Source of the DNA: Patagioenas fasciata | Lineage: Eukaryota > Chordata > Aves > Columbiformes > Columbidae | Assembly: GCF_037038585.1 (NCBI RefSeq) | Contig: NC_092523.1 | Span: 48,687,501-48,751,500, forward strand | Reading direction: 5' to 3' | Length of the DNA: 64,000 bases | Shown: positions 96 through 24,142 of the stretch, piece by piece | How positions within the stretch are numbered: the stretch's first letter is position 1 | How the letters are laid out: every line of letters begins with the position of its first letter | Translations under genes and position numbers: made by a program | Notes under the pieces: generated by a model | What the model was told of the DNA's origin: nothing | Databases searched by the model: none | What the model saw: the letters and a program-made list of their open reading frames with translations, nothing else

Positions 96-3000
96 AGCAC
101 ACGCAGTTGCAGAGGAATGAGGAGGTGCGATGCTCAAACCATGACAAAACACATACGCTAGTTCTCTCCTCTGATGGGATGCTTTCTGAGCAGTGGGCTA
201 CTGCTTCAGCTCACTGCTCTAAGACAAGGTAAGAAGTGGAGGGATGGATGGTAACAGTCAGAGAAGGTGGCCCACTTTTCCTAAAGGTGACATCCAAGAG
301 ACTGAGGCATGTTCCTGTTGTAGAGAGGGAACTGGAACACATTCTTTCCCAGTACCCAAAATTTATCTTCTTTTATTACCCAGCAAGAAGTACACTGATT
401 TTGAGGATAGTACCAAATTCTGAGCTGCTTGAGATGCGTATGAGACAGGCTTCTCTCAAACTTAGTAAGGTTTAGTAGCATATAGCAGAGTAATGCAGAT
501 GACTTGCAAGCCACATGTGGCTTGAGAAAGCTGTGGGTGAAAGAGCCAAGCACACCTGAACCTTGCCACCATCCAATTAGTCTGGGAGGATAACCATCAT
601 CTAAAAATGGCACAGCAGTTTGCTGTGGGATTTCTGTTAACTTGCCCAGGGCTGAGCCTGGTACTCTTCCATCTTCCCACGGTGCAAACCACAATCAAAT
701 CACTTAGTGCACCTAGCATAAGAGCAGGGTGAATCAACTTACAGATGACCTATATTTTTCCACATAATTCCTGCTAAACATGCTAGGCCTTGGTGAGCAG
801 GAGATCTTCCTTTGTCTCATGGCACAGCATCTATCTATTTTGATTTTTTTTTCCTTATTTTTGTAGGCTGGTGAAAGAACTAGAAGACCATCATATTGTT
901 CAAGTAGCATGTGGGGACCAGCATGCCATGGCACTCTCCAGAGGTAGCCTCTTTCAAGCACATTTTTCCTCCAAACAGGAGTCACATTATGGCAACCTTG
1001 CTCTCAGTGTCAGTGGTGACACTGTTAGAGAGTAATGATCGATGGGTAGGGAACACAAAGTGCACCTGGTATCAGCGGCGCCCTTTCCTCTCAGCACCCA
1101 GGGACCTGCAGCTCTGTCTCTCTCCAGTTCCTTAGCACTACCCCTCTGCAAAGGTGTGTTGTGGAGAGCAGATGTGCCCACCCCATTCTGCAGTCACCAG
1201 ACTTGCTCATTCTTAAGTTGGACCACCCCTTTGGTTAGGGACTTCTTGCAAGTATGGCTTTATAGGTTGCAGCACCCTGCCTTTATTCTTGCTGTCCTGA
1301 GTCACACAAGCAGCATGGGGCTGCCGCGAAGGGATCAGAAGCAAACAGGGAGATTTGGCTCCAAATGATGGTCTCACCTTAGAGCTAGATCTCTGAAAAC
1401 AGCACTGATTTTTTACTCCCACTCCCAAAGTGCAGAGACTCAAGGGAAGCAGAGAGGCTGAGCTGTTTTCTTTTGTTCTGTGTGTGAAGGAGGTGAGCTC
1501 TTCACCTGGGGCCAGAACGCCCATGGACAACTTGGAGTAAGCAGGCAAACCGCGCTCATCCCAAAGCCACAGCTGGTGGAAAGACTAAAGGGCATCCCAC
1601 TTGCTCAAATTGCTGCTGGAGGAGCTCACAACGTTGCTGTGTCACTCTCTGGAGCTGTGTACTCCTGGGGAAAGAATGATTTTGGACAGCTGGGACTCGG
1701 GGACACAAGAGGTAAGGAAGAACAGCAGTAGGAGGGTGTTTTCCTGGTCAGTGAGCTCACTGCAGACACAGGATTGGCTCAGAAATGTCAAGCCGCTTTA
1801 GAAGAGCAGGGGACATGAAAGTTTTTGGGCGAAAGTATGTTTGGATAAGTTCTTTGTTTCTGAGCTATTGTATCCTACCCAGGAAAGACATGCAGGGACA
1901 AGGGATTTAGGGGCTGTATTCTGATGAATTTATGTGACAAACAGGGTAGCATGTGCTCATAAAACTGTATGTCTCATAGGTCTCTTTCCGCTCCCGTTCT
2001 CTCTCCAGGCAGTCTTGTATGAAGGAAATTGACTTTATACCTCTTTGCCTTCTTTAATTCTCTGTAAATGCAAGGTGTGATAAGAATTAAAATCAGCCAT
2101 TGTCTTCAAACCTAGAAGGCTAGAGCAGAGTTGCCCTAGCCGGACAGGCCTTGAAGTCAGCGGCATCTAATCAGTCCAATATCTGACCCTTGAGAGTCAG
2201 ATATTTTGAAGCCAAGTACCTTTTGGCAAGCAAATGTGAAAGAACTGTGTTTTGTTTCGGATTTAATGTAGATGAAAAGAAAACACTATGAAAAAGACAG
2301 AACATTATGAGAAAGATTATGTTACTGTCCAGGGTAGGAAGGAACTCAGACCCAAGGTGTAAATACATTAATTGCTGTAAGAGAGGACTAAAAAGTGCTA
2401 AAAACTTTTTTTCTAAATCTTTATTTGTGTGAGACTCCCCAGTTCTCCTTCACTTTAGCAGTACTGTCTTCTTTCCAGACAGAGGCTGCCCATCCTACGT
2501 AAAAGCATTAGAGCACTGGAAGACTGTATTTGTCTCATGTGGAGCAGATCATACAGCAGTTCTCTCCAAGGTGAGTCTGAAGTGGAAGGTAAGCATCTGG
2601 GCCCTCACCCTCGGAGAAAATATACGCTGCTGAAAGTCAACACAATAGAAACACCTGCTTCCATCAGAGTCTGAGGATGATCCCTAAGGGATACTAAATA
2701 AGCTAGTGGGAAAATTTCCCTTTGCTCAGATTCCTGTCACCTGCATGCAAACTTTTGCAGGGAGATGGTGAATGGGAATCCTGGGGCAAAAAGGTGCAGT
2801 TCAACTTTCAGTATTTTTTGAAAACATTTTCTTTTTTTATAGCATATTGAGGACTTCAGAAAATGTGAACAATAGCTAATTCACTAGGGTTTACTCATAC
2901 AAGTAAGACTCTTAAGCAACAGGGAGTTATTCTCAGCAGTTAAATCACTTTCCTCAGGAGTTAGATGATTGGGACATTAGACAATGTAAGATTAGGCTTA

Positions 3001-4563
3001 ATGTGAAGTGGACTCTACCTGTGTTAGAATTAGGGATGTTTTGAATCAAGTCCCTTATAACATATTGTGTCTTGCTGACTCTAACTCTCAATCGTGACCA
3101 TTTGAATGTTGTTAATAATGTAGTGATCCTGTTGTTTTCTTCTTCATCTTCAAGGAGGGGTTGGTGTGCACCTTTGGAGCAGGAGGGTCTGGCCAGCTTG
3201 GTCACAACTCCACTCAGAATGAACTTGTGCCTCGTCTGGTGGCTGAGCTGTGGGGAGCAAGAGTCTCTCAGATTGCCTGCGGCAGGTGGGAAACTACCAA
3301 TAACCTTCTGAGGCCAAGGTCTTAGGCGAATCACTGCAGAGCAGAAAGGAGGGGAGTCACCAAGATGTTCAAATTGCCGCATCCCAGTAGATTTGCACTG
3401 TCGGAATATTGTCCACTGTTCAGGTGTAAGCCACCCTCCTGCCACAGCCCCAGTAAAAGCACAACCCTCAGCCCATGCTGAGCAGAGAGGCAGGGCTGCA
3501 AAGAACACCAGAAACCCTTGTGGGTTTTTTTCTTTCAAGAAATAGAGGGTATACTGGGTTCCAAACGGCAAAAGCCTGTCAGAAACCTGCATCAAGACAG
3601 TTACCAGGTTCCCATCCACTGGGTCCTTAGAAAGAACAAAAGAGGGGTGACAATTATCCATTTTCATTCTGCCTTTCTGGAACTCCTGGGCTTTGTATCA
3701 GGCTCAGCAGCACAGAATTTGCATTTAAACATAAAAGGCTGTGCAGCTAGCAGGGCATAACACTTTATTTTTGTATGTGGAACCACAGTAAATCACAAAC
3801 ATTAATGGACAGTATTGGCAATTTGGGTCCACGCATTTATTGCTGAATGTTTATGCAAGGACGGGTCCTAAGACTTCGGTTAAAGGCATTCTCTAGTTGA
3901 ACTGTCAGGACTCAGAAAGACAAGCCTCAGCTATCCACTCTGAAAACGTATCTGTAAATTTTATTCTGACTAGCCTGGTGGTATTAGCTTATTATGACCA
4001 TTTTTCTTTTTCTGATCAGACAGCACACCCTGGTCTATGTCCCCTCCTTGGACAAAGTCTTTTCATTTGGTTCTGATGAAGAAGGACATCTGGAAGATAA
4101 AAGAAAGCCTAATCAGTTGATACCACTTCCCATCGATTCACCAGTGAATACTGGAAAATCCCATCAGGGTAATGACCACTGTAGATGTGTACAATCTGTA
4201 TTTGTTTCTTCCAGGGAGATGTTTGCTCTCATGATTTCATATTTACACTGAGAGTCTAACATTCATATCTCATGCTCGTTTGGTCATCCCAGCAGATTCT
4301 ACAGTGGATAATTTGATTGGCTGTTTGATTTATCATCATGGGTAATAGCCACATAAAATCAACTTTTAGACAGACAGCTACTATCTGAGAGCTTTTTTTA
4401 CTGTTCCACATCTGTGCACTGACCTCCCTGAAGATAATGACTGTATCTTTAAATGTTTATTTGAAAATCTTTTTATTCTTTCACAGAAAACAACACATCA
4501 CAAAAGGTGATTGAAATTACTGCAGGAGGAAACCGAAGTATTGTCCTCTGCAAGAAGAACAAG
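96..4563 (+). other. RCC1-like propeller exons of the HERC5/6-type gene
   Basis: Seven exons encode RCC1-type blades. Recognisable signatures are VACGDQHAMALS (867-943), FTWGQNAHGQLG and AAGGAHNVAVSLSG with YSWGKNDFGQLG (1490-1711), VSCGADHTAVLS (2479-2570), TFGAGGSGQLGH and IACGR (3155-3285), and VFSFGSDEEGHL (4020-4168). The closing strand is ITAGGNRSIVLC (4487-4563). Lengths 77, 222, 92, 131 and 77 nt equal those of the matching HERC3 exons. In the family this propeller is a substrate or partner platform. The exon at 96-228 is the weakest: it keeps a THTLVLSSDG core but lacks the WG and GQLG signatures. It is supported mainly by matching entry and exit phases and by a length difference from HERC3 of exactly nine codons. 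Confidence 0.82.
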
Positions 4564-7500
4564 GTAGGTGCACGTTTGATCATGGCTTTTAATTTTGCCT
4601 TGTTCACATTATTGCTAGAAACATTTGCTTATTCCATCCTGCTTTTAGAGCTCCAAGTTGCAGTTCTTTCCATGCTTACCCAGAAACTAACTTGCATTGC
4701 AATTATGTATCTGTTCTGTGGTTAATGCATCTGGATGGTGCTGGGTGACCATTAATTTATTCATACTTAGACTGAAATCTTCTTGTAGTGATTGAAAAAA
4801 ATATCCCATCTGCTAGACTTGCAATCTTGTCGCTATTTTTACTTATTTCACACAGAATTCTTGTTTGAATGGAATTGCCACTCTGAAGGATGAAGATGTG
4901 GATGCATGGATCTCTAGTTCCAGTACACAAGACTGGGAGAGTTTAAAAAAGTAAGTCAGAAACCTGCTGGGGGTTTTTTGGTTGTTTTTTTTTTGGTGGT
5001 TTGTTCATTGTTTGACGGGTGTTTTGTTTGTTTTTGGTTTTGTTTTGGTGGTTTTTTTTTTTTTTCCCACCTCAATACATGATTTATCTAAAAAATATTA
5101 TTCTTTGGACACTGTTGTAGGTAGTGATGGTTGAGAATTTGGCCAAGACAGAACGTTGTATCAGCACTTCTTACCTAGTTTTTGCACAAGAAAAAGAGAT
5201 GTTGATAAGCGACAGCCCTTTGACAACCCTTTTGCAGGAACAGAGCAGATGTACTGCCTGTCTTTGAAATCCTTTCCTTCTCTTCTTTCAGAGAATGGTT
5301 GTTAAGGTGATGAAGAGCTGACAAGTTATATCAGAGAAAGATTCAGTCTGCAGACTGATGCCTTTTGCAAAAATCATAATTCAGAGTATCCAAACTGGAA
5401 CGTTCTTTGTGTGTCAGCATTTAAAAATCAGTGATCCCTTCTTTAATTACCCATTTTCAATAGCAGTAAGTATAAACTGCTGTGGGAAGCCTTACACTTA
5501 TGGCCGAGAATTACAATTGTGTAGTCTTTTTTTCAGATCTTATGTGTGAGATTATTTTATTTGGGAAAGTCTGACTGCAGCTGCTGATTTTGAGCATTTA
5601 AAAGTATTGGCTAATTTGCATCTAAATGTTTCCCTGGCTACTTTTGGTACAGTTTGGAACATGTGGAAAGCAGTTGTTGAGAGGGTGAGAGAGGGAGGAT
5701 TCTTTCCAGATCTCAACAGGAAGGGCCTGACAGAAAACTTTGTAATAAAATAGCTGCTTCAGTAGGAATAGAACCAGGAATACAGGTAGTAAGTCTTGCA
5801 TTCCTTCAGGTGCTGGGAACTCAGCTTTTGTGCAGCAGCAAATGGATCCCCTGATAGATTTTTCCTCAGTGTGATACAAAGATCCCATCTGTGAAGGGGT
5901 TCCTCCTGCCTCCCATGCCATGGTGCCTTTTATTTTGCATAACAAATAAAACCAGATAAGGTCCCCAGCCATCAGGAGAAGCTATCTCCATCACAGCACC
6001 CATCAGGACACAGCAACACTCTCAATGAATTAGTGCTAAAAAAAAAAAAAAATTGTGTTCAGGTGCAGACACACTGGTACTCCCAGTTTTTGCTCTTTCA
6101 GAATTAAAAACCTGAAGCTGCTACTCATGTTGAAAGGATTGACTTCAGTTTGTTTTTTACTGTCAGGAATATCGGATTGATCTTTTCATCTGAGGCCTGC
6201 ATCAACGGAAGCTTCCTGGCAAAAAGGTAGTGTGTGCTGTCTAAAACATAACAGAATATATTGGCTGCATGTAAACTGACCAGAAAGTGTAATTTTAGCC
6301 TGTGTATGTAGAGAAGATTAGTTGTATTTGATTTGCAAGAAGCAAGTCTTAATTTTTCAAAGCCCAAGCTAAAATTAAGTTTTTTATCCCCCCAGTCCTA
6401 TTGAAATTTGCTGTAGAAGCTCACATTCCAGCAGAATATCCCATAGTGGCATTTGACAGATGATTATAATCCATTTAGGCAATATTACAGCTCCCAAAGG
6501 ACCCATAATAGCTCCTCCCAGCACTGAAGTACAAGTCATTTTAGGGTGGAATACAGGAAGCCTGCCCTTAACAGTGCACAGCTGCACAAGGCAGGAAGGA
6601 CAGAATATTAATCAGGTTACACCCCAGTGAGAATGTGTTCTTAGAACAGACAAAATTATATATATACCCACTGGAGCCAGGGCTGAACTTTCTGAGTATT
6701 TTCTGATGTTAGGATGCTTAACTATCCACTCAGTAACAAAAAACAGCTTCTCACATAATTTGATGTTCTTTTTTACATTTGCCATAGAGACAAACATTTC
6801 AAAACTTCCAAAGAAGTCTCAGGTGTAGACATGGCAGAAGTGCAACATTTTTATGAGAAGGTCAGCAAGGTGCCAAAAGTCTTCGGGGAGGTAAGGATTC
6901 AATATAAAGATTCCCACTATACAGATACTGAGAAGCTCTAGATTTGTGCATGAAACTTGGGAATTTCCATGCCAACCTAATTCATCTATGATTTTGACAA
7001 AACATAATTGCACTTTTAACCCTTGTTTCTGTTCTGTGTTTTTGTTTGTTTGTTTTTCTTCTGAAGGTGTTAAAGGGGATTTTGAAGTTACAGCCATCAT
7101 TGTCTTCCTCTCCCATCTCACCTGAAAATTTCAGAGTCTACTTGATCTTGCCTTTCCTTCTCCAGGGAGAGTTTAACACCTCTTATGCTCTCAGGCGGGT
7201 AGCACAAACCATCACAAAACTCCAGCCACACAACCTGCGAACGCTTGGTAGGTTTTTATGATGATAGCACTGAATGATTTAAATGCCTGGTCATTTTTGG
7301 CTGCGAAGTAAGAGTTAGTATCACTGATGTAATTTGTTCCATAGTTTTGCCTGAAATAAATGCATTTGGTAAGAGTAGAAACATGGGGACTGCGCAGCAA
7401 GACACAAGAAAAAAAATCATCTCAGTCTGAATTTTACTAATTTTTGTAGTGCAAAATTAAGCTTCTTTTTGTTTAGTTCATTTGATAAAAAGAGAAAATG

Positions 7501-10500
7501 TGGCTTAACACACAAATTGCAGTTATTTGCATGTTACCTGTGACAAATACTTCACCAGCTGTTTTATTTACAGAATGCCTGTGGTCAAATCTAGAAACAT
7601 CCTTTTTCAAGCAGCTGGTCATTCTATATCAGAGAGTTTCCCAGATGATCCTGTCTGACTTTCTCAAGGATGTCAGACGTTGGCTAGGAAGCCTCTACCA
7701 CCTGGACCCACGTCAAACAGTGACCCTGCAAATGCTGCAGATTCTTTACCAGGTGAGAAAGCATTTGGATCCTGATTAGATAGGACATAACAGTATGAGT
7801 TAGAGTAGTTTAATCCTTTTTACTTGTTGAATTCTCAGAGTTTTCTTCTTACAAGGGAACATGGGGCCTTCTCATGTGGGGTTGCTTCAGGAATCGGTTT
7901 GGCTCTACACAAGCATAACTTCGAAGGAGTCCTGCTCTTACGTTGTGCCTGGACATCCCTCTATAGAAATGAAGAGCTGATGCATATTATAGCCTCTGTC
8001 AGGGGGAGGGATGCTTTCAGTGGTGTGAGGAGTGCATGTATTGATGCGTACAGAGCTATGGATTTGCTGTCCATGATCTAGCATGCCCATTCCCCTTTCT
8101 GCTGGTGAGATCTCTTACCCCAGTAACTGCTCACAGTATGTAAAAGACAACCTGCCTGCATGGCACACTGTGGCTGCCACAGTAATGCTGTGTGGTGCTT
8201 TAAGAGCCTGTTACCTGAGAAGTTTTCTGGGACAATAGAATTAGGGCATCTTTAGCTGCATGCAAACAAGGGGAATGGGCAATAACTGTATTCTTCTTGA
8301 CAACCATCCTTTCTCCTACTGAAATGTCAAAAGTTTAGGAAAGTTAAGAGCTCAAATGTGCATTTAGTATGAATCAGAGAGAATCATTAAATGTTGTTCA
8401 AAATTGAATATGTTTTTGGCCAAGAATGCAGATTTGGGCCTTTAAGTTTAGACTCTTGAATCTGTGTTTATCCAGGTAAGTAGACTCAAAAGTGCACCAA
8501 GCCTATTCCTCCATAAGTGCTTACGTCATTTGAAGCTTTACATTTCACTGTCCCCCTAAAAATCATATCTTTTTATGAAGTATGAACATGTATAGGGAGC
8601 TCCAGACTGTCCAACAACATGAAAGACACTCAAAGTGAAACACACCTTTTTTGATGGAGTTTCGTTAAGGGATCTTCATTGTAAATGGAAATTGCTTTCC
8701 TCAATGGCTTTCTGAGACTTCTCACTGCTGACTGCTGTGCTGCTTGTAATGATTCTATCCTTCCACTACTGTGCAGAATCTTGGAGCTCTTTCTGCAGAA
8801 GCCTTGCTACTCCTTAGTCCTGTCCTGTCACACAGACACATAGCTTACTAGATCTGCTGACACTCGTTTTCATATTGCTTGTTATCACTGCAGGTGAACT
8901 CCAGAACTGGTACCAGAGTAAAAGAAAACAACTTCTATGTGCCTGAAGTGAAAGAGATTATCTGTATGTGTCATTTCGTTGATATAAGAGGAGTAAGTAC
9001 AAAATCTTACCAGCAGTGCAAACCACTTTTTTTTTTTATTATTTTTAATGAGTCAATATATATGGAAGTCAACTCTATACTCTAGCCCAGTACTTTTCAA
9101 AGACAATGCATTTTCCCTAGTTCTCTAGCTGTTCTACATTATGCAACCCATTTGCCATCCCAGTATTTTAGCAGCTACAATAGTGCCTTTCCAGCAATGA
9201 CCCCTGGTTCTGAGAGCTGTCCTCCAGCATCTTAAGCAGCTCTTTGCTTTGAACTGGTGTTTAGTGTGAAATAGCACCACGAGCGATGATTGCTACAGTT
9301 CTTGTTGCTCTGGATTTCACTATGTTTAAATAACAGAAATATTGTGAGGTGTCTTTAAACTTTTATGCAGAAACTTTGTCGAGCATTTCAATTTACTTAT
9401 ATCTAAAACCAAAGCTGTGGTAATAGAAAACAATCTGTGAAGTGGTTCATTTCTTGATGACATGAAGGAGGGAAAATTAGCTACCAAATGCATCGGTGTC
9501 ATAGGAAGCAGCATGAAATGGAAACGTGGATAGTAGGGGCTTCCTTAGGCAAAAAATGCCTGGCTGAAATTCGAAGGGCAACTACCTCTTTCATAACCTT
9601 TCATCTGCTAATGTACCAATTTTGTACCAATTAATCAGAGCAGAAGAGAAGGCTTGAGAAACAGTATAGAATCAAAAGCCAAATAGTACATTACCTGAAG
9701 CTGCTGCCTTATCACACTAGAGGTGTAACACCTTGAATTAGATTATTTTGTATACCAATATCTACTTCGGTATTACAGATAATAAAGCAAACAGTTTTTA
9801 ACAACAATGTACCATAGCTTGGCTATCTAGGACATTTTTACTATGCATTTTGGTTTAGCGGAATTATGGAAAATGCTATTAAGATCACTACATCTCTGTT
9901 TTATTCCTGGGGCACTATAACACAAGTGTCTGCCTGCACAGACACTTCGGGTGCCTCTCTGTCAGGGTTTCTCACTCACAGGAGTGTTTAGCAGACAGCA
10001 TGCCTTTGTTGGTGTAGTGTTCGTGTACACAACAGGGGTGTGTTTTAGAGATAAAGGAGTTTGCCAGGGTACAGACTAGCAGTCCAGTCTGCCCATGTAC
10101 CCCCAAACTTGTTTGATTTTGTAAGAGAAAATCAATACGTCTTTTTCCTCCTTCCTTGTAATTTCAGACAGCCCTATGGATGCTGAGCAGGTATCCATGC
10201 ATCTTTGACATACAAGGGAAGATCATGGTTCATTTTACAGAACGCAACACTCGGGCCAGCCATTCGAGTGATGTAAGTATGGGCTTTTTTTTTTTTTTTC
10301 AATTTATAAGAGAGAAACACACTTGCTAACACATTGTTACTTCAATCTTCAGATACCCTTAATAGTGGCGACCATGAAGCTGTGGCGGTTTCCAGTCAAA
10401 AGACAGTGTCTTCTCCAAGACATATGGACCCATTTAAATAAGGCATCAACCCAGCAGTTTAAGAATCTCTTACAGGTAAGATACCAAATCGTATTGTTAG

Positions 10501-13500
10501 TTATGCTGCAGTGTTCTTTGGTTTTCAGTGTTACTGAAGTATTGGTAGAAGAGGTTTGGTCTTTGCTGAGCAAAAACCAAAACTTCGCATCAAATTGTTA
10601 TGAAACATGTTCCATGGAGGACATAGAGTAAATCTGGAGGGTAGTAACTTACATTCTTATTCCCCACAGCCATCAAGCTTTGTTAGCATAAGTTAAATGC
10701 AAGTGGCAGTGCTATTTACCATGAAGTTGCTTTTGGGTAATGTAATAGGATTGCTCAGGAAAACGGTAACTGGTGAAGTCTATTACTGCTAGGCTGACTT
10801 TAAAGACTCTGGGCTAGTTTGCTGTATGTGGAAAAACCTGGTGGCTGGGGACCCAGCAAGCGACATAGCCACAAAAGCCATTTCTCGCATGGAGATGCTG
10901 CCTGAAGGGACAGAAAGGATAGTGCCAGCAAGAGAGGTGGAAAGCTGATGATAATGCTGCTGTCTCTGTGTGGCTTCAGTCAGTGGTTTCCACACAAACT
11001 CAAAGGTTCTCGCAGCTGTATTTTCTTCAGGTATCGCAATGCTAGCCCTGCCCTACAAAAGCCATTAGATGGTTGATGTGAAAACAGCACCTGGGCAGAG
11101 CAGAGCTCAACTTGGGGGCCACATGCCTTGCCAATCACTGACACAAGGGCTGTCAGAGCCTGGCACCATGCCTGGGCAGAGGGAACGATCAACCTCTGCC
11201 CTGTTACCAATGTCTGGGTCTTTCCATGTGAACCTTCTTGACAGCCAGAGCTGTCAAGAGCTCTTCCTTCCTATACACTTGGGAGAAGATTCACAATGGC
11301 TCCTAGAGCTGCCTTTCCTTCCCCCTTCCTCACTACATCAGCTGAAAAAGGCATTTATTTACAGAGCCAGTCAGGCTTGTGCTCTGTACTGTCCTCTAGA
11401 GCTAGTCTCTCTCCACCAATTGTACATGGACCCATGACAAACAGCTGCACTTAGCTACAGTCAGCCTTTGAATACAGCCTTTGAGTGCTCTTGCAGTCAC
11501 TGCCTTTCATACCATGCATCACAGTATTATTTGCCCAGCAGCAGCCCAGTCAGTTTGACTGGATTATTAACATCTGGCCAAGAGACACTGAGGTCTGCAG
11601 TATGTATAACTTGGTGCTGCATTTCTGAGTTTTTCCAGAAGGCACAGGACATTTATGTGTCTGTGGTACACATATAAACCACCCTGTAACAAAACACAAA
11701 AAAAGAAACTCTTGTAATAGATTGTGGCATTAACCTGTCCCCTTCATAGCTGTGTCCTGTGAAGACAGTTTGTCAGACAGTACCAAGAACTTTGCAAGTG
11801 ACAACCTCATAGTGGTCTGTCATTCCGTTTGCTGTTGTTGCTTTAAATGAAAACAGGGAAGGCTGAAATGTTCAGCAAAAGTATTTTCTGTTCCCTCTAC
11901 TGAGGGGAAAGTTGATCTACATACTTAAACAGAATTTGTAGCTGCCAGCTTAACTACCAAATCCTGGACTCAGTTGGAGTTCTTTTTTCTCTAACCTGTC
12001 AGGAGATGCCTCTTTAATGGAGACGACCCAGCCTGGCTATCAAACTTGGGCACTCAGACACATTTAACAAATAGTACAGGGACACAGATCTCCTAAGCAA
12101 ACACTGGAATATGTTGGAGGCCACTCTAATAAAACCCCCAAATGCACAAATACATTTTTTCTGCAGAACTGTCATTTCCCCATCTTTTTATATTTCTTTC
12201 AAGATAAAAAAAAAGGCAAACAAGCAGCTACTGGACATATAGACATGGGTATCCTCCAAGTAAAAGTATTCATTTAACTCTTGTTATTAAACATCTAATT
12301 TATTTTATATTCTTCTGACAGTGAGACATTTCAATAACACACATCAATTCAAAACAAAACCAAAGCTCATAATTCAAAGAGAGATTCATATTGCTACATC
12401 TTGTCATTGCTTATTATTTAAGATCAGTTATTTCATTCATAAGTTCTTCCCCATAAAAATGCTCACTGCCTAGATCTTCATTAGTGCCACTACAAATCCA
12501 CTTGAATACACAAGAAGGAAGTAGTGCTTCTTGTTATTCCTCCTCTTTATCTGCCTTAGCAGTAATTAAGTAATAGGGTGCTGCAGATGACTTAATACAG
12601 TTCCAGATACTACTAGGAAAATGATGAGTCACTGGTGCTAGGAAGGAACTCTCTCAAATCAACTTCAATACCTGATTAGATTAAATAAACTGCACTGCTT
12701 TAGAGAAGCCCAGGGCTTAGCCAACACCTCACACTAGTTGTGCCTAAAAAGCTTAATCCCCATCCAGGTCCACAGGTGGAAGAACACATAAACCGGTATT
12801 GTAACAGGGAACAGGAGACTGTAGAAACACAAGCTGTTGGTGCTGGTGCAGCCCTGTGGGAAGGTTTCATCGACACTGGCTGAGTAAAACAAGCCTGCTA
12901 GGGACAGGAGGGGAATGAGCACAGTCAGGGTGGGCAGGGAGGGGAGCAGGCCTCGTCCGGCCATCAGTCCCGTCACTGCTCTGACTCCTTCGAGCCCTCG
13001 GCTGGCGGCTTCTTCTGAGTCGTCCTGGCAGCCTCGGGGATCATGTTGGGGATGCCGTCGATGATGGGGTACGCGATGCCCAGCTCCTCGTTAATGAGCT
13101 CGTTGGTAGCTTCTTCGTACCTGGCCAGGCAAGTCAGGGAAAAAAAACAAGAGGAGTGAATGACCGGGTTTGCCGCTGGCAGCCCCTCCCGCTCGGCACG
13201 GGGCGGCTGCAGGCCAAGGGCGGGCGGCCAGACCTGCCATTCCGCCGCTCAGGGCCCGGCCCCGGCCCTAGCCCCGGCCTCTCACCTCAGCGGCCGCTTG
13301 GAGAGCGGGCACACCAGGAACCGCAGCAGCGACGGCTCCAGCGGCTGCGCTAAACTGGTGCCCTGGCCGTGCCCGCCGCCGCTAGCCGCCCGAAGCAGCG
13401 CCGCCGTCCCGCCGCGCAGCATGGCCGCTCCCCGCGCCGGTGCGTTCGCCAGTCCGTCCCGGGCTGCGCCGCGGATCGCGCACGGTGGTTCCGCCCGCCT

Positions 13501-16500
13501 TCCCCGCCGCGGGTGGCGGTGCCGCTCCCCCCGGCGCTATGGGTGTCTCGGTGCCCGCAGGTGTCGTTCGAGGGCGAGCCAGGAGCGGACGAAGGTGGGC
13601 TGGGCCGGGAGCTGTTCAGCGTGGCCGCCAGGACCCTCTGCCAGCCCGACACCGGGCCGTTCCACCACCTCGCCTCCGGCCTGCTGTGGTTCCCCAGCCA
13701 GGTAAGCGGGCCCCGCGGCCCTGGCAGGCGGGGAGCCTGCGCCCGGGAAAAAGCAGTCACGGCTTGTTCTCCGTGTGTTTGTTCCTAAGCAGGCCCCGAG
13801 CAGCCAGCACACCTTCTTCCAGATTGGGACGCTATGCGGAATGGCGCTGTACAACGGGTACACGGTGCCCTTCCCCTTCCCCAGGACTCTCTACAAGAAG
13901 CTGCTGGGCCTGGAGCCCGACCTCGGCGACCTGGAGGAGCTGTTGCCAGCCGCAGGCCGGTACGAGCCAGGCAGGCCCCAGATGTTGCTGGGAAGCTATG
14001 GCTGAGGCAGGTCTGCTGACTTGAGGATGCGCACAGAGATCCCCAAGGCCGTATTTGGGGTACCTCTGACAGCTGTATTTGCCATCGCAGAGCTGCTAAA
14101 AGCTACAGATTATCAAGGTTGCCTTTGTCCAGGGCATGAATGTTGCTCTCAGACAGGGGCTTTCATCGCCAAAATAAAAAGCTGACCCCATGGCTTACAA
14201 GGGAACAGATTTCTGGTCCATGCGAGCTAAAGTCCACACTGAATATGTAGTTCAGAACCGCTTTGTGGAAGAACTAAGCACCCAGTTACTAATGTTGAGG
14301 GTTTTTTCTGATTTACTAATTACCAGTTTCCACAGTGATATTACACAAGCACAGTGTTACCATATGCTGCTGTTGTGCCAGATCTGACAATCCACAGTGG
14401 GGTTTCTACAGGCTGGGAAAGGAGATTTCAGGCAGGTATAGCTGGGAGAGCTGCTGCTGCCACCAATATAAAGCTATGCCCCTGAAGCCCAGCGTTCCAC
14501 GCAAGTGCTATAAACAGCCAAGAAGATGAGAACCCCTTTCCTGAAGGCAGCGAGTGCGTTGAAATGCAAAAGAGCCCTTAGTGCTGACTGAAATATCAGG
14601 TTGCTTGCAATACTTTGAGAGGTGCCGCACCCCAAAACAGTTCTCTTGGATCATCCCACTGGTCCACAGTTAATTCCTCACAAGGCTTTGGTCCAAGCCT
14701 ACCACTGAACTTTGTGTAAAGTTATCCCCACAGGGCATGGGGACGGACTTGCCTGAAACCCTTCAAGGCAAAGGCATTTGCCCTCAGCTTGAGGCAGCAG
14801 CAGGACGTAAGTGTACAGATCAGTTTAGGGCCATATATGGAGGTGAATATAGGTGTTCCATATGTATATGCATTTAAAATCTGCTTGTCAAAGGATGGTT
14901 TTCAGTGGAATTTGAAAGTGCTTTGCATGATCATTTGTCCTCTCTCTTTGCCCCTTTGTTTTTCGAAAGGAGCCTTCAGAGAATTTTGGATGAAGAATGT
15001 GATCAAGTCCTTGAGAGCCTGGACATGGACTTCACGGTAAGACATTATTGTGCCATTCAGACATGCCGTGTCCCACTGCAAATGACACAACTTGTCTGTA
15101 AACTCAAACTAAGAGAAGTGCTGTGTCAGGCCTTGCAGAAGGAAAGAATGTTAGATGTAGCACATTTATATCTGTCCTATATAGATATAGCACCCAATGT
15201 TTTAATTTATTTGTGTAGATAATGGAAGAAGGAGGTTCCATGGTTCCTGTTGAACTTAAAGAAAATGGTGCCAACATTCCTGTCACTAAGTATAACAGGT
15301 CAGTTTTATTTTTCTTATCCTGTTGTCTTGAGTGTGTGAAATAGCATATCTACATTCATCCCCATATACTCTTAGAAAACATTGAACATCAGCATTGAGC
15401 CGTTGGTCTTGGTGCAATAGGTTGTATGCTTTCAGTTCTTGCTGTACATGCTGCATATGCTCTAGACATTGAGTGTTTGTGCAAGCAGTCGATAAGAAGG
15501 GGATCCCTGGACTTCCTGGCATCTGCATATACAGAGATGCCTGGCCTTATCAGGGAAATTCCTAACAAATGTATAAAATACCCCTGAAGAATATTTTCAG
15601 GTAAATACAACACCTCTGGGAGCTCCAGCAATAGCTACACCTCTATAAGGTGGTGTTTTGGTTTTTTTTCTGAGCAAAATGTTTCTGGCTTAGTTACATA
15701 TATGGAATGTATCCTGTATATAACAGAGAAGGAGCAATCTGTCAGTATGGTATTGTGTCAATATTAACCTCAGCACAGAGGAGAGAGAAATTCTGTGGCC
15801 TGAGTTACACAGATGATCTGAGGACCCACAGAGGTGCACAAAAATGATGTTTAGGAAGGTTGAAGTACAGCATTTACATTGAGTTGATTGTACAAGTACA
15901 AAGTCACTAAACAAATCCCCATCAAAACCAGAAGATTAAAACTGTACTGATTAGCAGTGCCAATATTTATTTTGATTTCAGGTTAATTCTTGGGCACTCA
16001 GTGGGAGTTTTGCTGAATTTACCACATTTAGGTCTGCTATGCTCCATTTAATAGTGAAGTGTCTGACAGGATCTCATTGGAGGGTTCACATGAAGTACAA
16101 AGAGTATTATAAAAATGAATCCATGTTGGCCAGCATTCTCTTATTTGTGTTGATCCTTCTGTTATTCAGTGAATAATAATTGCCAGTGATGACTTCTCTC
16201 AGTAAAGACTGAGTCTTTATAGTAGAGCAGGTCCTTTGGAATAAAGAAAGAAAGTTCTCTGTATTTCTCCTTTTAAAAAAACACCTATTGCATTGTTTGT
16301 CTGATTCAAATTATCTTTGCAGGAAAGAATTTGTTGACTTGTATGTGAACTATGTGCTCAATAAATCAATACAGAAGCCATTTGAGGACTTCATGCAAGG
16401 GTTTTTAAGAGGCTGCCCAGCTAAGCAGTGGAAGATATTTCTCCCTGCAGAGCTCCAGATTGTTATCCAGGGACACACAGAATTTGACTGGAATCTGCTG

Positions 16501-17698
16501 GAAAAGGTATTGGATACAAGCACATACTTCTGCCATATCTGCTGACCATACAGTTTTTCAGACCTCTTGTTTTGTTGAGTGCATAGGTCATGAACAAAGA
16601 AACAGAAGCTCAAGAGACTTTATTTTTCTTAATTTGTGTCATTACTTTGAGTGTGTTTCAAATCTATATCAGGTACAAGAATAAACAGGATTAAAAATCA
16701 ATTTGTAGCTCAAGGATTGTCATATGAATCTTTGGAAAACAAATGAACAAGCAGATTCCAGAGGTTAAGAGGATTTTAATATCTATGAACAGGATTATGA
16801 AATTTATCAGATAAACTGTTGTGGCTGTATGGGAATAATGAGGATTAACTGGCTTGGTTTATTTTTATCTCTTTGACAGAATGTGAAGTACATACACTAT
16901 AAAGAGTTAGATCAAACCATCAGGAATTTTTGGGCTGTGTTTCATAAACTCCCAGAAGAAAAAAAGAAGATGTTTCTTGGTAATATATCAGGCATTTTAA
17001 ACTTTTCATAGCCCTTTTCTCTACCCCACAACACACATTTTAGATGCTTGCACATGAAAAATATGTTAGTTCTGAACAGCTCTTGACATGCTCCCTCCCC
17101 CCATTTTCTAGTGAAAGCCACAAAGAATTGCACAGACACAGCTCTGAGCCTCCTCCCCTCCCTTGAGGCTTGGCTGAGCACATCTGACTGCCTTGAGCCT
17201 TGCAATTACTTTATGTCTTACTTTTGTGGTTATCAGTTGTTGGTCAGAGGCCTCAACTTGTGTGAGCAGACTATATAAGGAAAAGTAAAAAAGGGCTTAT
17301 AATTATTATGAATCAGCAAGAGACTTTAATATATTCAGGTACAAATTCAACAAAGCAAAATAACTAACTTACAGAAATAGCCATGTTTTATACTAATTTC
17401 CCCTCATGATTTTCATTCTCTGATAACATCTTGTTTTGTTTTCAGTTTACTAACTGCTTTTTGTTTTTCTTTTTTCCCTTCAGCTTTTTTGTCAGGATCT
17501 GATCGAATCCCTGCCTGTGAAATGGAACATTTTAGTTTTTATATTGTAGATCCTCAAGCAGAAAATCCAGATGAGTGCTATTTTTTTGCCAATACTTGCA
17601 GACGTATTTTGTTCCTCCCCAGATACAGCAATAAAAGAATACTCAAGAAAAAGTTGCTCTGTACCATAGAGCATAATGAAAATTTTGGCTTGCGCTAA
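96..17698 (+). CDS. HERC5/HERC6-type small HERC E3 ligase (RCC1-like + HECT), 5' partial
   Basis: Joined coding exons: 96-228, 867-943, 1490-1711, 2479-2570, 3155-3285, 4020-4168, 4487-4563, 4856-4950, 6167-6226, 6788-6890, 7067-7247, 7574-7752, 8894-8992, 10168-10272, 10353-10475, 13561-13701, 13793-13959, 14970-15036, 15219-15298, 16323-16506, 16880-16979, 17484-17698. The frame is open throughout (about 925 residues) and every intron is GT...AG. The N-terminus, about 75 residues by comparison with HERC3, lies before the window. RCC1-like blades are followed by a middle region and a HECT domain whose catalytic Cys (NTC, codon 17597-17599) is 33 residues from the C-terminus, the same spacing as in HERC3. 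In mammals HERC5 and HERC6 are interferon-inducible ligases for ISG15/ubiquitin; that role here is only inference. Synteny beside PYURF/PIGY and HERC3 supports HERC5/6, but I cannot choose between them. PYURF/PIGY lies antisense in intron 10476-13560. Confidence 0.88.
4856..10272 (+). other. Middle (linker) exons of the HERC5/6-type gene
   Basis: Seven exons (4856-4950, 6167-6226, 6788-6890, 7067-7247, 7574-7752, 8894-8992, 10168-10272) join the propeller to the HECT domain. Family landmarks are IFSSEACINGSFL (6167-6226), which matches [13 protein letters not shown] in HERC3, RVYLILP (7067-7247), FYVPE (8894-8992) and YPCIFD (10168-10272). Exon lengths differ from HERC3 only by multiples of three, and 6167-6226 has exactly the HERC3 length of 60 nt. 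I found no counterpart of the 24-nt HERC3 microexon in intron 8993-10167. The remaining introns of this block show no other gene; 4968-5068 is a T/G-rich low-complexity tract. Confidence 0.8.
4968..5068 (+). repeat. T/G-rich low-complexity tract
   Basis: About 100 bp almost entirely of T and G (TTTGGTTGTTTT, TTTTGGTGG, then a T run), in the HERC5/6-type intron just after the donor of exon 4856-4950. Confidence 0.75.
12299..12304 (-). terminator. Candidate poly(A) signal for PYURF-PIGY
   Basis: The plus strand reads TTTATT, which is AATAAA on the minus strand, about 430 nt past the PIGY stop. It lies in AT-rich sequence, with no better hexamer seen between it and the stop codon. Position and orientation fit a 3' UTR ending, but there is no transcript evidence. 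Confidence 0.4.
12734..12964 (-). CDS. PIGY: PIGY, GPI-GlcNAc transferase subunit Y (downstream ORF)
   Basis: A single uninterrupted ORF of 76 residues on the minus strand, ATG 12964-12962 and stop 12736-12734. The body (SLPTLTVLIPLLSLAGLFYS, QGCTSTNSLCFYSLL, IPVYVFFHLWTWMGIKLFRHN at the C-terminus) matches PIGY closely. Two hydrophobic segments, roughly residues 9-28 and 49-68, would span the ER membrane. PIGY is a small subunit of the GPI-N-acetylglucosaminyltransferase complex (with PIGA, PIGC, PIGH, PIGP, PIGQ and DPM2), which catalyses the first step of GPI-anchor synthesis. The mammalian protein is 71 residues long; here its initiator Met position is not Met, and the first in-frame ATG gives a five-residue extension (MAGRG...). 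A GTG four codons upstream is in frame, but I do not take it as the start. Confidence 0.93.
   Translation of the reverse strand: MAGRGLLPSLPTLTVLIPLLSLAGLFYSASVDETFPQGCTSTNSLCFYSLLFPVTIPVYVFFHLWTWMGIKLFRHN
12973..13422 (-). CDS. PYURF: PYURF (PREY), Trm112-like protein; upstream ORF of the PYURF-PIGY transcript
   Basis: Two coding exons on the minus strand: 13422-13286 (ATG at 13422-13420) and 13120-12973 (TGA at 12975-12973). They are joined across a 165-bp GT...AG intron with an AG|G codon split and give 94 residues. The N-terminus (MLRGGTAALLRAA...) is Ala/Arg-rich with few acids, as expected of a mitochondrial presequence. The Trm112-like core follows: RFLVCPLSKRPLRYE, then NELINEELGIAYPIIDGIP and NMIPEAAR, nearly identical to what I recall of the mammalian protein. 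PYURF is reported to stabilise mitochondrial SAM-dependent methyltransferases for coenzyme Q and complex I biogenesis. The same transcript carries PIGY 8 nt downstream. The gene is antisense inside a HERC5/6-type intron, and its start codon is about 140 bp from the HECT exon at 13561. Confidence 0.93.
13010..13990. promoter_or_regulatory. CpG-rich region: PYURF promoter, overlapping two HERC5/6-type HECT exons
   Basis: CpG dinucleotides and GC are abundant from the second PYURF exon through 13990, in sharp contrast to the AT-rich flanks. The PYURF start codon (13422) lies inside, so the promoter most plausibly sits at 13425-13560, just before the plus-strand HECT exon at 13561. The island spans plus-strand exons 13561-13701 and 13793-13959. 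I saw no TATA box. Whether the promoter also fires on the plus strand cannot be told from sequence. Confidence 0.65.
13960..14969 (+). other. Intron of the HERC5/6-type gene, no feature seen
   Basis: Lies between HECT exons 13793-13959 and 14970-15036. If the donor at 13960 is not used, the frame stops shortly after, at about 14005. I recognise no repeat or gene here. Confidence 0.5.
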
Positions 17699-18382
17699 CT
17701 CTTGGTAAGAAGCACTTTAAAGCAAAAGTAGGAAAACAAGTCCTCGTTTCACGTGTTATATTTCTATCTTAATTACTCCAATATACTGGTTTCCACACTG
17801 GCTTATTTTTAATGCACTTTATACACTTGAGTGTGTGTATTCATTGAGATTTTATACAGATTATAAAAATGAGCTTAGACCAGATTGCCCGATTGTTAGA
17901 TTATAAAGTTAGGATTATAAAGTTTACCATGCTTCAAAGAAACAAGCTGATAACCCAGGCTATTTACGTCTATGTGCATCTTCTCTGCCTTGTGCTGGTC
18001 TTGTTTAGTTGGTGAGCTTTCAGCAGCGGGGATTCTGCAATTTGAACATTACTAAGCGTATAGCCAGTACATGCTAAGCATTCATTGTTGCAAGAGGCAG
18101 CTAGGGCAAAGTTTTAATCTGTATTAGTTAAAGATTATTTTGGGGAGTAAGTAATGCTGAGGAGACTTCTTCCTGCAAACTGTGAATTGAAAGAGCAGTC
18201 CGTGCTCACCTGAATATAGCCTTTGACTTATCTGAGAGAAGTTCTTAGGATGAGGATCTGATCATTCTTAGGCTTTATTGAAAGCTGCATTTGTAAAACA
18301 TTAATGGACTTTTTATTATTTAGTGTGATATCACTGTTATATTTGTTGTCCTTCTTTATATCTTCTAAGGACATGTTGGGCA

Positions 18383-18388
18383 ATTAAA
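18383..18388 (+). terminator. Weak candidate poly(A) signal for the HERC5/6-type gene
   Basis: ATTAAA, a common variant hexamer, occurs about 690 nt after the stop codon at 17698. No canonical AATAAA was noticed between them. Other ATTAAA hexamers lie further downstream (near 18675 and 19750), so the real 3' end is uncertain. Confidence 0.25.
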
Positions 18389-20891
18389 TCAAACAAAATT
18401 TTAGGCTTGCAGAACAGCTATGTACATGAGGCTTGCAGGGATGCTGGAATCCTGTTGCCAAAACTGCGTAGCACTGGCAGGATATTGACCATGTCAGGCA
18501 GGACATAAAGGCAGAGGAGGTATTTTTCTGTGTATTTTGCTCTGTGTAAAAACATAGAAAGAAAGAGAGAGAGTGACAACAATCATGAATTTTCAGCAGT
18601 CCTCCTCCTTCCTTTCGTGTGTTAAATGTGTCAGTGGACATACATATGTAATGAAGACTTTTACTGTATTCAATTAAATGATGATTTATTAGATTTCCAC
18701 ACTTGTAGCTGTGTTCTTCCTTTGTTATGCAGCTGCCTATGCATGACGGTGTATCTGTGTTTTCTGTCCTCATTAACATGGGGAAGTTACTCACAAGAGA
18801 AGCCAAAGGCTGATGTAAATGTAGTTCAAATAGATGCATTGCATGGGCTGAACAAGTCAGGGTCTTTCCTATTTGGTGCAGAATATGCTATAGATGAATG
18901 TATAACATTGAAAGCGAGAAGAAGACAGCAGTTCCTACCTCCTGTTCTGTCTTTGTGTTGGGTATCACATGCACACCCTCTTGGATCAGGGAGGCTGCCT
19001 CTTTGAAGTGCCAGTATACGATACAAAGCTTTTTTGAAAGTGACTGTTAGGCTAGTAAAAGTTTTCCAGGAAAGACGTAGGCATTATTTATGAATTTCCA
19101 GCTCGGTTAAAAGGATGTTTTTACATATTGAGGAAAAGAAAGCTTCATTTTAAGTTACAGTATAGTAATTAGTAGATAAAATCTTCAATCACTCACCTCA
19201 AATGCCAGGGCAGTACAGGAAAACAGGGGACACAGCAGTGGTGACAGGCAGGGGGGGACCAGCGCCTCGGAGGATGCCAGCCGCCAGCCAAGGGGGGTGA
19301 GGGAACATGTGACCAGTGCAGAGCCAACTCCCAGACCCCTCACCCACCAGCAGCAGACAGGACACCACAGGGGTGCTGGCATCCTCTGGGAAAGGCACCA
19401 CCTTGCTGCAGGTGTATTTTTATGGAAAGAGGAAAGTGGCAGAAGCCCATGGTGTTGTCCCCATCAAGCCTGAGGGTCCCCATCCCACCCCTGGCTGATG
19501 CTGTCACAGCAGCTCAGCCTGCTGCTCTTCACCAGCCTGCTCCTGGCTGCTTGTTGCCTTTTTAAATATTTTTCTAAGCCTCTGTTAGGGCTTGGAAATC
19601 TGGAGTGATCCATGCTGTGTGAGTGTACAAAAGATGCATTCTGTTTGGACTTTGAAATAACCCATTAGCAATTAAGTGATAATAGGTTTATTGAGAGCCT
19701 GAAGGAATTTCCTTCTTATCATGTACCGTGTAGTGTCACATGGGAGATTAAAGCTCAGAGTAACTCTACAGGCTATTTTTACTTTGTCCTCAAATAAGCC
19801 ATGCTTTTATATATATTTAAAATACCTTTAGAGGGAGCAAGATAGAGTGTTCCTCTGTCATTTTCTAAAATGATTTGAGCACCAAGCTGTGTCTACATTT
19901 TCTCAAGCAGTGCTTGTTATAAAATATGCAGAGGAATACAAGAAGAGTGACCCTTGCACTCAGCTATGAATTTAAAAGGCTTTACATAGGCAGCAAAAGC
20001 ATATTGAACCTGCAGAGAAATTTATTTAGACCACTCATCTGATATGAATGTTACCCATAGAAAAGCACAGGAGCCTGGCAGAGCAGCTGATGCAACCAGC
20101 GTGGATCTGGGGTGACCAGGACATCCTGTCAGCTTGTAAGCCATGAGAAATTAAGGAGGTAGCCTGGTGAAGTGTGTTAGGGGTGAGCTTCATGCTGGAT
20201 TTGCTCCAGAGGGCACCATGCAGAAATACTGCTTCCATGGGAGGCAGCAGGACCTTGCCTTGGCTGACTAATCCCCAGCTGAGCCCCTCTCAGAAGCTCT
20301 TCCCAAACATGGGCAGGACCGAAAAAGAAAAGTAAAAAATGGAAGGGTTCATTGCTTACAGAACAACACAGAGACATCAGAGGCCACATAGAAGGACTTC
20401 TCCTACTGGGGCACAGGCCTGTGGCCAATGCAGGTGGTTTCCCTGTGGTGGCACACTCTGTGGCCAGCTTTACTCCCCTCCTCATGTTCTGTATTGGCGG
20501 AAAGCTCTGAGAACAGCCAGGACTGACCAAGCAAAAGCATCACTACCTCTGCACAGCCTCAGTAAAAGGTGTGGCCTATGAAGGAAGGCAACCAACAGCA
20601 CCTAGTGAAGGACTCTACGGTAAACAGCTGCTGGAAAGGTTCACAGGGCAGGTGAAATAACTTGTATTACCACAGCATTCAGGAGACTTCACCACATGCT
20701 CACCCATGTGGTTCTTGACACTGGACTGTTGTTCAGTTGTTTGGGGGAGGAATGACATGCTTTGGAAATCAGGATGAGCTGCAGATTCTGGCATCTCTGA
20801 ATACCTTTGGACCTGATCTCTGGATGACCTAACCCATCAAGGAAATGGTGAGGTGCATCTTCTTCTAGCACGTCCAACCTCACCACGGGCC

Positions 20892-20962
20892 CTGTGTGAG
20901 CCAGCACAGGCAGGACACAGGAACAACCACAAAACCACGGATGAAATGCGAAGAGTAAATTT
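20892..20962 (+). repeat. 71-bp dispersed repeat, copy 1
   Basis: This segment is about 90% identical, without gaps, to 49169-49239 in the same orientation. I count seven differences, all transitions. Similarity may begin slightly earlier, since CCAACCTCAC precedes both copies. I do not recognise the family; a fragment of an LTR or SINE is possible. Confidence 0.7.
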
Positions 20963-21954
20963 TATTTCTGTTACTTTGCCATTCAGAGGCTCTTACAAAG
21001 GAATCAGCCAAGGTGGAGGCCTCCAGAGGGAGCTGCACACAGTGGAGTGCAGAGACACAAATAGAATGGCATTATTTTGGTGTCTTAATTTAAAATTTTA
21101 TCCATTTATAAAGAAGCAGCCTTGAAAGTTCTCCACAAAGCTGAAATGTAGCCAGTTAGAAACTGGTTTAAGCAAGAGAGTGCTGGCTTCCTCAGACAAA
21201 TTGTAGGCTATATTCTCTCACAGACTTCTTTTTTTTTTTTTTTGAGGTGTGTGTGTACCTTCCCCTCCTTGATTACTCAATCAGAAACAAACAGAGGAAA
21301 CTGATTTTAAAGGGAAAAACTGTCTATTTTGCAAAGGGCTCCAGATGCTGAAATACATAAAACAAAAAACAATGGAAATATTTTTTTCCTCTATGCTTTT
21401 AGTTATTCCGGAAGCTGCTTGTCACACTGGTTAAGTAAAAACTACTACATCACAGGTGTAATGCTACATGAGAGAGTGGCTCTTTTTATGCTAAACATGC
21501 ATGATCCACGCAAATACAGGTGAATTTTTATCCAATACAGGTCACGTTGCATGCTAAGTACACAAACACTGCAAACTGCCAGATATGTAGCATAAGGAAG
21601 ATGAATGCTGCAGGCACTGGACTTGTTTTAGGGACCTCTTCCTCCCACTTGGAGCCCTTGCAAACATCTCTGTGTGTTTTGCTCAAATATTGACTGTCAC
21701 TTTGATGGTCCAAGTGGGATCGAGTTTGTGCATTGCTCTTGTGGTGTGCAGAATCTTTTTCTAATGGATGGCATTAAAATTAGAAAATGAGTACTCAGGA
21801 ATTACATAATCGCTTGCTTATTGGCTTCCTCCCCGCCCCACCCCCCCTGTTTCTCCCAACAGAGATTTATGCTTTGACCAGAAATATTTTCCAAAGGTTG
21901 AAACATTGTATAAAATGTATGAGTTCCTAAACAAACAAGCCTGTCAGCAATTAA

Positions 21955-23284
21955 GTAGTCTGGACATCCATAAATCCATGGGTCCAGATGAGATGCACCC
22001 ACGGGTGCTGAGGGAGCTGACTGAAGTCATTGCTAGACCGCTCTCCATCATCTTTGCCAAGTCTTGGGAAATGGGAGAGGTGCCTGAGGACTGGAGGAAA
22101 GCAAATGTCACTCCACTCTTCAAAAAGGGCAAGAAGGAGGACCCGGGTAATTATAGACCAGCCAGCCTCACCTCCATCCCTGGGAAAGTAATGGAACGGC
22201 TTGTCCTTGGTGCCATCTCAAGGCATATCAAGGATAAGAGAGTCATTAGGGGCAGTCAGCATGGCTTTACTAAGGGTAAGTCATGCTTGACCAACCTCAT
22301 AGCCTTTTATGAGAATGTAACAAGGTGGATGGATGATGGCAGAGCGGTGGATGTGGTCTACCTTGACTTCAGTAAAGCCTTTGACACAGTCCCTCACAGC
22401 ATCCTCACAGCTAAGTTGAGGAGATGTGGTCTAGACAATAGAGTAGTGAGGTGGGTTGCAAACTGGCTTAAGGAGAGAAGCCAGAGAGTGGTAGTCAATG
22501 GTGCGGAGTCTAGCTGGAGGCCAGTATCTAGTGGAGTGCCTCAGGGGTCAGTACTGGGGCCAATATTATTCAATATATTCATTAACGATTTGGACGAGGG
22601 AACTGAGAAAGCAGTGTAGGGGAAAGGGACCTGGGGATCCTGGTGGACAGCAGGATGACCATGAGCCAGCACTGTGCCCTTGTGGTCAGGAAGGCCAATG
22701 GCATCCTGGGGTGTATTACAAGGGGGGTGGTTAGTAGGTTGAGAGAGGTTCTCCTTCCCCTCTGCTCTGCCCTGGTGAGACCCCATCTGGAGTATTTTGT
22801 CCAGTTGTGGGCCCCTCAGTTCAAGAAGGACAGGGAACTGCTGAAGAGAGTCCAGCATAGGGCAACAAAGATGATTAAGGGAGTGGAGCACCTCCCTTAT
22901 GAAGAAAGGCTGAGAGAGCTGTGTCTCTTTAGTTTGGAGGAGACTGAGGGGTGACCTTATTAATAAGTATATAAAAGGTGAGTGCCATGAGGATGGAACC
23001 AGGCTCCTCTCGGTGGCAAACAATGATAGGACAAGGGGTAATGGGATAAAGCTGGATCACAAGAGGTTCCACTTAAATTTGAGAAGAAACTTCTTCTCAG
23101 TGAGGGTGATGGAGCACTGGAACAGGCTGCCCAGGGAGGTTGTGGAGTCTCCTTCCCCGGAGACATTCAAAACCCACCTGGACATGTTCCTGTGTGACCT
23201 CATCTAGGGCGTTCCTGCTCTGGCAGGGGGATTGGACTAGGTGATCTTTCGAGGTCCCTTCCAATCCCTAACATTCTGTGATAC
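21955..23284 (+). mobile_element. CR1-type LINE copy, 5' truncated and internally deleted
   Basis: A frame open to 22619 encodes the N-terminal two thirds of a CR1 reverse transcriptase: [74 protein letters not shown]. Right after this the sequence jumps to the region downstream of the catalytic FADD box, so that box is missing. The remainder, out of frame in places, reads through [22 protein letters not shown] and [15 protein letters not shown], then reaches a CR1 3' end at about 23280 (CCCTTCCAATCCCT, ATTCTGTG). The element may begin upstream of 21955. It cannot make an active polymerase. CR1 is the dominant LINE of birds and other reptiles. Confidence 0.93.
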
Positions 23285-24047: not shown

Positions 24048-24052
24048 ATTGG
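24048..24052 (-). promoter_or_regulatory. Inverted CCAAT box in the HERC3 promoter
   Basis: The plus strand reads ATTGG in the context CCTATTGGCCGT, which resembles the NF-Y site in its usual inverted form. It lies about 50-90 bp upstream of the probable start of exon 1, a typical distance. Confidence 0.5.
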
Positions 24053-24079
24053 CCGTCCCGAGCCGTCACTCCCACCGGC

Positions 24080-24142
24080 GGCCGCGGTGTGAGGGGCTGG
24101 ACTTCCTCGTTGCCGTGGTGGTAGCGGCGGAGCCGGCGGCAG
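24080..24142 (+). other. HERC3: Probable untranslated first exon of HERC3
   Basis: A strong splice donor, GGCGGCAG|GTGAGC, ends an exon at 24142 inside the CpG island downstream of the CCAAT box. There is no useful ATG in it. It would splice to the acceptor at 28507, leaving 32 nt of further 5' UTR before the ATG at 28539. The 5' end given is a guess; only the donor is visible. Confidence 0.5.

Follow-up and report, generated by a model that had tools for sequence, protein, structure and literature searches.

In the band-tailed pigeon Patagioenas fasciata, a small-HERC ubiquitin ligase gene spans both sides of PYURF and PIGY, which lie on the opposite strand within one of its introns. This layout and the continuity of the HERC coding sequence across the nested locus were observed in a window of 64,000 nucleotides (nt) of assembly GCF_037038585.1 (NC_092523.1, 48,687,501-48,751,500); all positions below are those of the window. 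In chicken, opposite interferon regulation of the two partners has been reported. The best explanation, which we consider probable, is that interferon-driven HERC polymerases would cross PYURF/PIGY in antisense and occlude its promoter in cis.

The small-HERC gene

The HERC gene lies on the plus strand and comprises 925 codons over 22 in-window coding exons without an internal stop. Its stop codon, TAA, occupies 17696-17698, and its 5' end and N-terminus lie to the left of the window. GT is found in 21 of 21 donors and AG in 22 of 22 acceptors, with agreeing phases; the exon ends were picked by hand, so that the GT/AG agreement is partly by construction. The coding exons are as follows.

96-228, plus strand: probable first in-window HERC coding exon, RCC1 repeat region, with AG/GT ends and a frame that runs into 867; the least certain exon
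867-943, 1490-1711, 2479-2570, 3155-3285, 4020-4168, 4487-4563, 4856-4950, plus strand: exons of the RCC1 repeats and spacer, first part, placed by GT-AG ends and phase
6167-6226, 6788-6890, 7067-7247, 7574-7752, 8894-8992, 10168-10272, plus strand: exons of the RCC1 repeats and spacer, second part, placed in the same way
10353-10475, plus strand: exon preceding the nested locus, in whose 3' part the HECT alignment begins
10476-13560, plus strand: phase-0 intron of 3,085 bp, host of PYURF and PIGY
13561-13701, 13793-13959, plus strand: exons within the CpG island
14970-15036, 15219-15298, 16323-16506, 16880-16979, 17484-17698, plus strand: remaining HECT domain exons

The encoded protein matches the Pfam families RCC1 (E 8.9e-53) and WD40_RLD (6.8e-53) and, once, HECT (E 5.2e-73), and thus has an RCC1-like domain followed by a single C-terminal HECT domain in one open reading frame, as in a small HERC ubiquitin ligase. 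In the HECT C-lobe, Cys893 (motif NTCRR) aligns with the cysteine of the E6AP motif HTC, the catalytic residue of that enzyme; Cys893 is therefore the predicted catalytic cysteine of this ligase. The label of HERC5/6 type, given to the gene in an earlier note on this DNA, is unproven: statements in PMC6002735 and PMC10003058 argue against it, and the latter assigns a chicken gene to HERC7. Downstream, no plus-strand AATAAA was found in 17699-19500, that is, within 1.8 kb past the HERC stop, leaving ATTAAA at 18383 and 18673 as the sole candidates for a poly(A) signal.

Continuity across the nested locus

The exon to the left of the nested locus ends with ...QQFKNLLQ at 10475 (CAG/gtaaga) and that to the right starts with VSFEGEPG at 13561 (ccgcag/GTG), both in phase 0. 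The earlier note had joined these two exons and placed their junction at that of HERC3; splice ends and frame bear out the former, and the HERC3 junction KPLK/VIFDGEE, found at 63282/63913 in the same window, is also of phase 0 and has the same intron position. The note's further claim that one HERC gene spans both sides holds because the frame stays open, only one HECT domain is formed and no spare HERC exon was found in the intron. Its use of the shared phase 0 as proof does not hold, because small-HERC paralogues share introns: a phase match is weak evidence for one gene and would equally be seen if left and right stemmed from different HERC paralogues. The gene may conceivably be a fusion of two such paralogues around PYURF.

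HECT alignments to structures in the PDB cross the junction (residue 609) in 55 of the 60 rows listed (75 matched), though in 6 of the 55 crossing rows only 7 residues are aligned to its left. The best match among the rows listed is E6AP (1c4z, 1.3e-57), and the five non-crossing rows are UBR5, with alignments that start after the junction. The donor at 10475 is the second strongest of the 21 HERC donors. A second, broken HERC gene within the intron was rejected, since a tblastn search with the in-window HERC protein returned nothing in 10476-13560 at E values up to 10. The same search gave three weak matches in 17699-28500 (best E 0.086), which were taken as chance.

An assembly error would also produce such nesting, and the earlier note had named a gap or inversion at this point among the findings that would refute it. 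The window contains 0 N, the coding frame is unbroken over the in-window junctions, and parts of PMC4974698 describe the same gene order in chicken, which together make an assembly error very improbable.

As a separate observation, the acceptor at 13561 has a pyrimidine content of 0.56, the lowest in the HERC gene. The exon that it opens, 13561-13701, is 141 nt long; its skipping would keep the frame and remove 47 HECT residues.

PYURF, PIGY and the CpG island

The earlier note had placed PYURF and PIGY on the minus strand between the two HERC exons, in agreement with the open reading frames and Pfam matches obtained here.

13422-13286, minus strand: PYURF coding exon 1, with ATG and donor GTGAG
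13120-12973, minus strand: PYURF coding exon 2 with stop codon, Pfam PF03966
12964-12734, minus strand: PIGY open reading frame, Pfam PF15159, beginning 8 nt past the PYURF stop in a bicistronic layout
12299-12304, minus strand: nearest candidate poly(A) signal of PYURF/PIGY, AATAAA
~12901-13950, no strand: CpG island, with a GC content of 0.59-0.79 and an observed/expected CpG ratio of 0.59-1.17 in 200-bp windows

PYURF is predicted to have 94 residues and matches Trm112p (E 4.3e-12); it is Trm112-like, spliced and upstream of PIGY, as expected of PYURF. PIGY, with 76 residues, matches the PIG-Y family (E 1.9e-09). The two probably share one transcript, as the bicistronic layout suggests, and further minus-strand poly(A) signals are present (AATAAA at 11359, ATTAAA at 12018). 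A retrocopy was rejected, as PYURF retains a GT-AG intron. PIGY is a subunit of the glycosylphosphatidylinositol (GPI)-N-acetylglucosamine transferase, and PYURF is a mitochondrial chaperone. The coding parts of the locus (12734-13422) lie wholly within 10476-13560, and hence form an opposite-strand nested gene; the 5' untranslated part may extend into the HERC exons.

Within the CpG island lie the first PYURF coding exon and the greater part of the second, together with the presumed PYURF promoter and the HERC exons of 13561-13959. From the PYURF start codon to the start of the HERC exon at 13561 is a distance of 139 bp, and the promoter is likely to be positioned within the island. The GC content at third codon positions of the HERC exons 13561-13701 and 13793-13959 is 0.91 and 0.89, respectively, whereas the remaining 20 HERC exons have values of 0.31-0.60. 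This composition suggests that promoter and HECT-coding DNA have been overlapping for a long time.

Neither an interferon-stimulated response element (ISRE)-like motif, GAAANNGAAA, nor a gamma-activated sequence (GAS)-like motif, TTC-N2..4-GAA, was found in 12900-14300 with a simple consensus scan, which can miss sites. Direct interferon control at the PYURF promoter was rejected on this ground. Counted over the entire window, GAAANNGAAA is present 8 times (4.6 expected) and GAAANNGAAAC once (0.8 expected).

Interferon response of the chicken locus

The corresponding chicken gene, LOC422513, spans PYURF and is a single gene in RefSeq (PMC4974698); what is said here of this and the other cited papers refers to the parts of them that were covered. 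Chicken fibroblasts were treated with interferon (IFN)-alpha for 6 h and analysed with three technologies (fold change >3, false discovery rate <0.01), giving 180, 156 and 137 up-regulated entries (probe sets on the first two platforms, genes on the third) and one down-regulated entry on each, which was PYURF or PIGY every time (PMC4974698). When the RNA-seq data were put to a second statistical test, 37 more genes were called up-regulated. By RNA-seq the fall of PYURF/PIGY was 24-fold, while LOC422513 was induced 87-fold at one end and more at the other; chicken HERC3 was not induced (PMC4974698). The methods of that paper name the library kit and leave its strandedness unstated; if the library was unstranded, antisense HERC intron reads would mask part of the PYURF/PIGY fall. 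No mechanism for the repression is offered in its methods, results and down-regulation sections.

Repression has been reported in two other chicken papers as well, again with no mechanism proposed in the passages covered. PIGY was the most down-regulated gene in an IFN-alpha/IFN-gamma comparison in DF-1-derived cells and was named among the genes suppressed by every IFN type (PMC6963425). In the ileum after H9N2, PIGY heads a list of 14 down-regulated genes at the second of the three times tabulated (PMC8517014). Among genes changed by avian influenza, LOC422513 stands beside classical interferon-stimulated genes in three four-species rows, which jointly cover chicken, crow, duck, goose and turkey (PMC10011077).

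These chicken data (PMC4974698, PMC6963425, PMC8517014) fit the clash that the earlier note had anticipated between PYURF/PIGY and a HERC gene induced by interferon; its interpretation is partly supported, and its observation is confirmed by the sequence. The pigeon gene, whose promoter lies outside the window, may by analogy with LOC422513 be interferon-stimulated too.

Proposed promoter occlusion by antisense HERC transcription

Under the proposed mechanism, the HERC promoter would be almost silent at rest, with PYURF/PIGY firing from the CpG island. After interferon, HERC transcription would rise strongly, a rise that is itself reported for chicken. HERC polymerases would then enter PYURF/PIGY at its 3' end, collide head-on with the polymerases of that locus and sweep its promoter, which overlaps or adjoins the HERC exons of 13561-13959. 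PYURF/PIGY initiation would fail and its mRNA would decay. The outcome would be a switch in cis, turning an antiviral-type ligase on and PIGY and PYURF off. The layout, the open frame, the single HECT domain, the overlap marked by CpG content and third-position GC, the lack of ISRE- or GAS-like motifs in the scanned region and the chicken expression data all count in favour of promoter occlusion.

Several points weigh against it. If synthesis alone were to stop, levels could drop 24-fold within 6 h only with an mRNA half-life of ~1.3 h or shorter, so the PYURF/PIGY mRNA would have to be that short-lived or undergo added decay. The chicken data are carried over to the window by likeness of layout. 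In other experiments more genes fell: 29 with IFN-alpha in PMC6963425, and 577 transcripts in chicken embryonic stem cells treated with interferon (PMC6471371), because of which the status of PYURF/PIGY as the sole repressed gene holds for fibroblasts. The five-species row of PMC10011077 lacks LOC422513, and the direction of its change is not given there. The acceptor at 13561 has the lowest score of the 22 (-1.51; next 2.69) and ranks 61 among the 224 AGs of the intron, as judged with a small matrix built from this HERC gene's own other sites that penalises GC-rich sites. Finally, the authors of PMC4974698 suspected that LOC422513 might be two genes, with basal levels that differ between its ends.

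The last two points also belong to an alternative in which two transcription units, both interferon-induced, flank the locus: an RCC1-only HERC ending in the intron, and a HECT transcript starting from the divergent side of the PYURF island. Plus-strand poly(A) signals in the intron (AATAAA at 12128 and 12684, ATTAAA at 12286 and 12680) would suit such an ending, and a nested antisense gene in Caenorhabditis elegans induces a short host form (PMC12274878). However, no in-frame ATG exists upstream of 13561 in the open stretch, which begins at 13354. In the right part, whose translation has 318 letters (stop included), Met first appears at residue 64, so that a transcript starting there would need a coding exon further upstream to encode a complete HECT domain. 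The left part alone would lack the bulk of the HECT domain, and chicken RefSeq has one gene (PMC4974698), with which a short basal transcript could coexist. Two separate units are considered quite unlikely. As for the unequal basal signal, the assignment of the left-hand or right-hand end of PMC4974698 to the HECT end is not certain; the inequality itself might be explained by an effect like that in C. elegans or, speculatively, by a short transcript that leaves the PYURF island in the divergent direction.

Interferon could instead repress PYURF/PIGY through the locus's own promoter or through mRNA decay, with the nesting a coincidence. The repression reported in the three chicken papers (PMC4974698, PMC6963425, PMC8517014) would be accounted for by this route, and the fast fall would fit active decay. 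Against it stands the scan of 12900-14300, with the reservation that simple consensus scans miss sites; moreover, coincidence leaves unexplained why, in fibroblasts, it was PYURF/PIGY, with strongly induced exons on either side, that stood out. This alternative is considered unlikely, and promoter occlusion by HERC transcription is preferred.

Comparison with known systems

The closest system is the chicken locus itself, where a HERC-like gene begins before antisense PYURF/PIGY, runs across it and continues beyond it, with HERC3 next, and where the published interferon behaviour fits the proposed switch; PMC4974698 differs in being undecided between one and two genes and in proposing no mechanism in the sections covered. 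The human locus shares the gene neighbourhood (HERC5, PYURF/PIGY, HERC3), but the overlapping gene is HERC3, whose chicken counterpart is not interferon-induced, and PYURF/PIGY lies downstream of HERC5 rather than inside it (PMC4974698). The earlier note had put human PIGY outside both genes, which is right for HERC5 and wrong for HERC3.

At two loci described in PMC13309782, one partner is impaired in cis when a nested gene or the promoter in a CpG island is transcribed through. Antisense LUC7L transcription runs over the HBA2 CpG island, although there on a deletion disease allele; H13 and Mcts2 lie on one strand and are an imprinted pair, in which it is the host that is disturbed by the nested gene rather than the reverse. 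At Polr3e, an intron-nested antisense MIR element leads to transcriptional interference, but the nested unit is an RNA polymerase III element and lowers the host (PMC5358760). The C. elegans gene mentioned above, ceh-10, is likewise nested on the opposite strand, in polq-1, but induces a short host transcript (PMC12274878).

Nested genes and transcriptional interference are thus known (PMC13309782, PMC5358760, PMC12274878), and the chicken layout and the PYURF/PIGY repression are already in print (PMC4974698). In the literature searched, PIGY and the phrase 'transcriptional interference' were not found together in any paper; PYURF was not searched with that phrase. Promoter occlusion would account in simple physical terms for a chicken result that has been repeated but not explained, in which PYURF/PIGY was the sole repressed gene on three platforms in fibroblasts. 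If true, transcription of an antiviral gene is in itself enough to switch off a housekeeping locus, and antisense interference at an active CpG-island promoter could be studied in ordinary cell lines, in a natural system that can be induced. Promoter occlusion also bears on the question of whether birds, unlike mammals, have GPI-anchored surface proteins that are altered by interferon. A wider and more doubtful proposal is that birds use this layout as a built-in interferon off-switch: through promoter occlusion, HERC induction would close down the making of GPI anchors and, in the same cell, the mitochondrial functions that depend on PYURF. The two states would be locked together because the CpG-island promoter overlaps HECT exons, and selection for antiviral output would also have selected metabolic shutdown.

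HERC3 and other features of the window

28539-64000, plus strand: HERC3, the comparison gene for intron position, with its start codon at 28539 and its 3' end beyond the window

HERC3 has its own CpG-rich 5' region at ~23500-24900, which contains a GC-rich tandem repeat at 24270-24365 (41-bp unit, 2 perfect copies, overlapping 36-bp and 5-bp periods). Within HERC3, an identical 26-bp sequence, TAGGTATTGTGGCACTGGACAAGCCT, occurs at 52597-52622 and 53890-53915, the second copy being located at the presumed 5' splice site of an exon that ends near 53889, an end judged by eye. A tRNA scan of the window found no tRNA. Between the small HERC and HERC3, a truncated CR1-like LINE was recognised by eye at 21950-23290 on the plus strand, with its end near ACATTCTGTGATAC; this call, made from features typical of CR1, points to a bird or other sauropsid. 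Two more CR1-like fragments were recognised by eye in a HERC3 intron, at 42278-42700 and 43890-44090.

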